A stretch of 64,000 bases of DNA from Woeseiaceae bacterium (GTDB taxonomy: Bacteria; Pseudomonadota; Gammaproteobacteria; Steroidobacterales; Woeseiaceae): positions 248,001 through 312,000 of the forward strand of contig JASJCQ010000004.1 of NCBI GenBank assembly GCA_030065915.1, given 5' to 3'. The notes under the pieces were generated by a model. The model had not been told where the DNA came from and ran no database searches. It saw nothing but the letters and a program-made list of their open reading frames with translations. Both the position numbers and the translations under genes were made by a program. Shown here piece by piece: positions 17,811 through 32,546 of the stretch (the first letter of the stretch is position 1; every line of letters begins with the position of its first letter).

Positions 17811-17839
17811 ACCGTTCCGGCTTGGTCTCAGGCAAAAAG

Positions 17840-17864
17840 AAAGGCCGCGCACTGCGCGGCCTTT
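17840..17864 (-). terminator. bidirectional rho-independent terminator AAAGGCCGCGC-ACT-GCGCGGCCTTT
   Basis: Perfect 11 bp stem with 3 nt loop. The U-tract is best on the minus strand (TTTCTTTTT), i.e. downstream of the 17890-17970 small ORF. Confidence 0.8.
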
Positions 17865-17889
17865 CGTGAGATTGGTACCTGAAAACCGG

Positions 17890-17970
17890 TCAAAGGACGG
17901 AGAAGAGTGACTCCATCATCCGGTCAAGACCCTGCGGTTTTTCACGTACCTCAATAATCTCACTAGACAT
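17890..17970 (-). CDS. 26-aa microprotein MSSEIIEVREKPQGLDRMMESLFSVL (not in ORF track)
   Basis: ATG preceded by GAAAGGAGGTGATCC, which is complementary to the 16S 3' end, at optimal spacing. Followed by TGA and a strong terminator; promoter TTGGTT-N17-GATACT with A/T-rich UP-like tract upstream. Confidence 0.7.
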   Translation of the reverse strand: MSSEIIEVREKPQGLDRMMESLFSVL

Positions 17971-18003
17971 GGATCACCTCCTTTCAATAGTCAGCCCAAC
18001 GCA

Positions 18004-18032
18004 AGTATCGCTTGGAAGCTACTGAAAACCAA
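18004..18032 (-). promoter_or_regulatory. candidate sigma70 promoter for the 26-aa ORF: TTGGTT-17 nt-GATACT
   Basis: Read on the minus strand; AAAATTTTTTCT tract immediately upstream of the -35 resembles an UP element. Confidence 0.5.
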
Positions 18033-32215: not shown

Positions 32216-32546
32216 CTGCGCATAAATCACAACAAAGACAGGCGCCGGTAGCGCTAAGTATCGGCGGCCCCGCTATCCAGGTTGTAACTTCACCCTGGAC
32301 CGGAGGCTTTGCGACACTGCCTTACGACAGCTGTGCCTTTGTCGAACCCGGTCGATGCTGCATGCATCGGTCAAGGCTCGCAAGCCGACGAAAGCGCAGA
32401 TGACATAATCCCGGACTGTCGCTGCTAAGCGACTGATTCCAAGGGAAGTGCCGGATGCCGTGCAACGTCGCTCTGCTGAAGCAATCGCACATAATCTTGT
32501 ATCCTGCGTAAGCCGTACCGAAGCACAAGGCGGGAGAAACCAGACA

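Follow-up and report, generated by a model that had tools for sequence, protein, structure and literature searches.

Small messenger RNAs in which an extended Shine-Dalgarno (SD) sequence precedes a very short open reading frame (ORF) have already been seen in Alphaproteobacteria. We take this class, including the CC2171-type relatives discussed below, to be the rreB/rreR class that Hahn and co-workers reportedly described in 2017. rreB is said to belong to the Bradyrhizobiaceae and to encode 14 amino acids, rreR to the Rhodobacter/Roseobacter lineage and to encode 18, and both reportedly carry 16 or more (16–17) nucleotides complementary to the 3' end of 16S rRNA upstream of the small ORF. 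The rreB RNA is said to bind the 30S subunit strongly, to be translated weakly and to have a stability that depends on ribosomes; replacement of its start codon by a stop codon reportedly stabilised it. A 14-amino-acid small protein of B. japonicum and an 18-amino-acid one of Dinoroseobacter have been found to be unstructured by NMR (PMC7217052). We infer that these are the products of rreB and rreR.

In this study we describe a tiny gene missed by annotation on the minus strand of a 64,000-nucleotide stretch of Woeseiaceae DNA, here called the window. Its RNA resembles rreB and rreR in being a small free-standing mRNA with an SD over most of the 16S tail and a very short, conserved ORF. It differs from them in that it is gammaproteobacterial, encodes 26 amino acids from an ATG and has 13–15 instead of 16–17 complementary nucleotides. 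With dual-function sRNAs that contain small ORFs, such as rnTrpL/peTrpL (PMC7298713), it shares a short terminated RNA and a translated micro-ORF, but it does not attenuate a biosynthetic gene, it is not leaderless and its structure spans the ORF.

Read in order from 18032 to 17833, the locus comprises a promoter, the extended SD AAAGGAGGTGATCC, an ATG, 26 codons, a TGA and a 12-bp terminator. The first-pass annotation had described a complete minus-strand transcription unit at this place, and every element of it was found. The −35 element TTGGTT (18027..18032), with a T/A-rich tract just upstream, is separated by a 17-nt spacer from the −10 element GATACT (18004..18009), and across the genus the promoter is kept as CTTGGAATTT-N-AGACATACT, the respective consensus sequences of the two elements. 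It was not listed in a generic promoter scan because TTGGTT falls under the 9-of-12 threshold; the earlier description of all elements as near consensus was generous for this −35, although the promoter itself is present and conserved in the genus. A short leader (17985..18003; genus consensus GGGCAAACAA... from the alignment) follows, in which transcription is predicted to start near 17996–17998, approx. 12–15 nt 5' of AAAGGAGG. The SD occupies 17971..17984 and the ORF, MSSEIIEVREKPQGLDRMMESLFSVL plus TGA, 17890..17970, with the ATG at 17970 and the TGA at 17892–17890. The intrinsic terminator hairpin (17839..17865) has 12 pairs, not the 11 stated earlier, with a 3-nt loop and the expected T tract to 17833, and no gene on the same strand stands directly behind it. 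From its sequence we regard the locus as a real and conserved free-standing small transcription unit with a predicted RNA of approx. 160 nt.

The 14-mer AAAGGAGGTGATCC is the sole match within ≤2 mismatches in the 64-kb window, where 0.29 were expected, and the sole exact match in the 3.96-Mb genome. A 16S rRNA gene had no match in the host assembly, and the complementarity is therefore stated against the standard bacterial tail: 13 nt (AAGGAGGTGATCC) and the A of the ATG fit it, and 1–2 more depend on the tail of the host. Against this standard tail the SD fits the earlier description as nearly the full complement of the 16S 3' end. A second GGATCACCTCCTT in the congener L200 was considered as a 16S tail and rejected, its surroundings not being 16S-like. 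That the ORF segment AUGGAGCA(A)CC might mask the SD and the start codon is a weak idea, the mean duplex z being only about −1.1 to −1.4.

The closest curated family is CC2171 (Rfam RF01867), filed as a Caulobacter sRNA. The model aligned over its full length (1–159) to the window RNA with 35.6 bits (E = 8e-6), which is under the gathering threshold of 75 bits; other congeneric loci scored 34–38 bits, and matches were also obtained in relatives from the same order and from another family. The order of SD-like GAAAGGAGGUGAUCC, closing helix and terminator that characterises CC2171 was found in the window RNA. The match lies on the right strand, and the two RNAs have in common an A/C-rich leader, GAAAGGAGGUGAUCCA-(G)UGUCU and a helix that starts at about ORF nucleotide 7 and closes just 5' of the terminator. 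In contrast, the window RNA has one nucleotide fewer before its start codon, which is ATG and not GTG, the closing helix P1 reads GTGAGAT/ATCTCAC instead of CATTGTC/GACAATG, the peptides differ, and Rfam names no ORF in CC2171 where the window RNA carries one of 26 codons. That the window RNA is a gammaproteobacterial relative or variant of the CC2171-type RNAs seems to us far more certain than any mechanism proposed below.

When 299 genomes of the phylum were surveyed with the CC2171 model, 61 of the genomes had a match at E ≤ 0.01, and in 10 it exceeded the cut-off; the named control, Caulobacter vibrioides, matched. Among 30 hits that were fetched, 27 had AGGAGGTGATC and the other three AGGAGGTGGTC, and the ORFs, where read, comprised 14 to 27 codons encoding lineage-specific peptides. 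The alphaproteobacterial hits include 14-aa GTG ORFs (for example VSYTKRCHLAGIAR) and 18-aa ORFs (VSREVLENGVGTAWEVRL), which agree with the descriptions of rreB and rreR. Relatives across Alphaproteobacteria and other Gammaproteobacteria have the extended SD and a micro-ORF of 11–42 aa (mode 26), with a terminator in nearly all. One further family of the order was widely positive and a large one gave none; elsewhere in the class, one family has an ORF that likewise comprises 26 aa and begins MSSEI. The kind of RNA has been seen before; new are its branch in Gammaproteobacteria, a rod that covaries and a frame that is kept while the peptide drifts. The finding links an RNA filed as non-coding in Rfam to the extended-SD small mRNAs and extends their set into Gammaproteobacteria. 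A literature search by sequence or family identifier returned passing mentions only.

The shortest ORF, of 11 aa (MS(D/N)GCIEVLTG), was seen after the same SD and with a terminator in two loci of another gammaproteobacterial family (L051, L052). Three MAG records titled Klebsiella pneumoniae (L066, L107, L109) also carry the RNA; these labels are probably wrong, because the ORFs resemble those of environmental gammaproteobacterial MAGs.

A tblastn-type search with the 26-codon ORF, the check proposed in the first-pass annotation, was performed without imposing the SD. It returned 12 true loci, of which 11 lie in congeners and one is that of the window, and all 12 had promoter, extended SD, ATG, 26 codons and terminator. 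The SD-ATG signature was present in 63 of 73 congeneric genomes and in 29 of the 31 good assemblies, nearly always in single copy, and the named records with a locus of the Woeseiaceae type were Woeseiaceae MAGs. Because the pattern used to fetch the large locus set already specifies the SD and codons 1–5, SD conservation was judged solely from the searches that did not impose it (the tblastn-type search and the Rfam-model survey). Synteny is largely kept in the genus, with convergent downstream and divergent upstream genes. From this conservation, the single copy and the kept synteny we concluded that the gene is free-standing and is passed on with the chromosome. The window RNA was searched for in phages and the Agrobacterium copy in plasmids, neither was found, and cargo of phages or plasmids was ruled out on these grounds.

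To follow the RNA structure, 54 loci of the Woeseiaceae type were aligned and four helices, P1, P2, P3 and the terminator, were tested. P1 pairs nucleotides 8–14 of the ORF with ATCTCAC adjoining the terminator; in the window its arms are GTGAGATT (17956..17963, ORF nt 8–15) and AATCTCAC (17866..17873), the latter directly 5' of the terminator. The P2 arms GGTAC (17946..17950) and GTACC (17874..17878) were placed from alignment and fold, and P3 pairs codons 14–15 with the stop-codon region. Pairing was found in 91.8% of the helix cells and fell to 40–48% when partners were slid by 1–3 columns. Compensatory cells numbered 119, against 36 ± 10 in shuffles, they occurred in P1, P2, P3 and the terminator, and 16 of 28 pairs had two-sided changes. 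Deriving the structure from the same alignment biases the test in its favour, a bias that does not account for the two-sided changes in P2 and the terminator. As the fetching pattern largely fixes the 5' arm of P1, support for this helix was drawn from other lineages and from its 3' arm: 73% of the loci reached 6 consecutive pairs with their own partner and 44% with swapped partners, and other loci have the distinct arms CATTGTC/GACAATG and CATGGTT/GACCATG. The window RNA itself folds with −66.9 kcal/mol (z −5.4), a stability reached by none of 200 shuffles. The covariation and the fold indicate that the RNA is a conserved rod closed by P1.

The frame had been described as unannotated for its length, and it is maintained: exactly 26 codons were counted in 54 of 55 loci of the Woeseiaceae type and 31 in the remaining one. 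Conservation of the frame in relatives, on which the first-pass annotation had staked its reading beforehand, was clear. Codons 7–26 contained no in-frame stop in any of 54 loci, whereas the other two frames had stops in 43 and 29; column permutation gave a mean of 33 of 54 loci with a stop and reached zero in none of 5000 trials. In the same codons pN/pS was 0.77 in the true frame and 0.80 and 0.99 in the wrong ones, a test that spans approx. 20 free codons and has limited power, and variability was nearly equal at the three codon positions (0.375, 0.389, 0.428). Close pairs gave approx. 0.66–0.9 (0.66 in one clade, 0.7–0.9 for independent pairs), which would fit a modest constraint on the peptide, at most a weak one, and the picture was alike in other lineages. 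Since the frame is kept and pN/pS resembles that of wrong frames, being translated appears to be selected and the peptide sequence to be at most weakly constrained. The locus is a case of conserved frame and RNA fold with a drifting peptide sequence.

The earlier proposal of an abundantly made microprotein or peptide precursor fared less well, as purifying selection was not above the wrong-frame controls. A functional microprotein gene, in which the 26-aa peptide matters and the extended SD merely raises expression, would account for a frame and a length that are shared by 54 of the 55 loci, for the MSSEI...(E)QPS pattern recognisable in both Alpha- and Gammaproteobacteria and for those close pairs with pN/pS below 1. 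It is nevertheless an unlikely explanation: overall pN/pS is no lower than in wrong frames, and alphaproteobacterial peptides are unrelated past the N-terminus though SD, P1 and terminator persist. Moreover several of the most conserved positions, namely codons 1–5, the GL of codons 14–15 and the stop, fall on arms of the covarying helices, and a Pfam scan of the peptide gave no match. A PqqA or other RiPP precursor had been argued against from the start, and rightly so, considering this absence of a Pfam match and that the four tested neighbours (Aminotran_5, one unmatched protein, DUF418 and TerB by Pfam) include neither a radical-SAM gene nor another maturase. A trans-acting sRNA that pairs with other mRNAs and is translated only incidentally would agree with the filing of CC2171 as an sRNA and with a structured, terminator-ended, free-standing transcript; one Woeseiaceae clade also has a conserved CCTCCTTTTC 3' of the stop that is complementary to SDs. 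Neither the window copy nor most of the MSS clade has this stretch, however, and the stop-free frame would be needless, so that we consider such a role quite improbable. The resemblance of a small ORF with a terminator to a leader peptide or attenuator does not carry far, as downstream genes are convergent in nearly all loci of the genus and neighbours vary between lineages; a leader role is largely refuted and was ruled out. Chance assembly of near-consensus elements could be entertained from a single genome and from nothing beyond it, and is refuted by the 63 positive congeners of 73 with their compensatory base changes.

We favour, with a probability of roughly 55%, a structured small mRNA that combines capture of 30S subunits, gating by P1 and decay coupled to translation, the peptide being probably secondary. 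The long SD would capture 30S subunits very tightly, and P1, lying within the 30S footprint, would slow accommodation on the start codon, so that the RNA would persist as a 30S-RNA complex that is translated only slowly. Every passing ribosome would unfold the rod and expose the RNA to decay, by which the RNA level would become coupled to ribosome availability and the act of translation would count for more than its product. It counts against this explanation that the SD is predicted to be only approx. 40–50% unpaired in single-sequence ensembles. The comparisons made here suggest that the peptide is under less selection than the RNA and its being read. If it is translation as such that is under selection, the finding matters for the question of how free ribosomal subunits are used or sensed in the cell. 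A further step, in which the RNA of both classes would act on free 30S subunits in trans, sensing or buffering them, with SD and P1 as the trap and translation of any peptide setting the lifetime, is speculative and seems doubtful to us. The first-pass annotation had recognised a genuine free-standing unit and overlooked the structure of its RNA, the match to CC2171 and the breadth of the family across Alpha- and Gammaproteobacteria.

In several Woeseiaceae clades (for example L005, L016, L007) a conserved TAATNATAACCC-like stretch lies approx. 70 nt upstream of the −10 element, 5' of a T-rich tract, and is possibly an activator site. The MSR clade (for example L005, L016, L129) has a strongly conserved CCCTCCTTTTCAGATAC just 3' of the ORF stop, absent in the window copy; it contains the anti-SD CCTCCTTTT, which could pair with the clade's own SD or with other mRNAs. 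Elsewhere in the window, a c-di-GMP-I-GGC riboswitch was detected at 32259–32346 on the minus strand (59.5 bits, gathering score 59); immediately downstream of it lies a 456-aa ORF (32230–30860) that by eye is FAD-linked oxidase-like.
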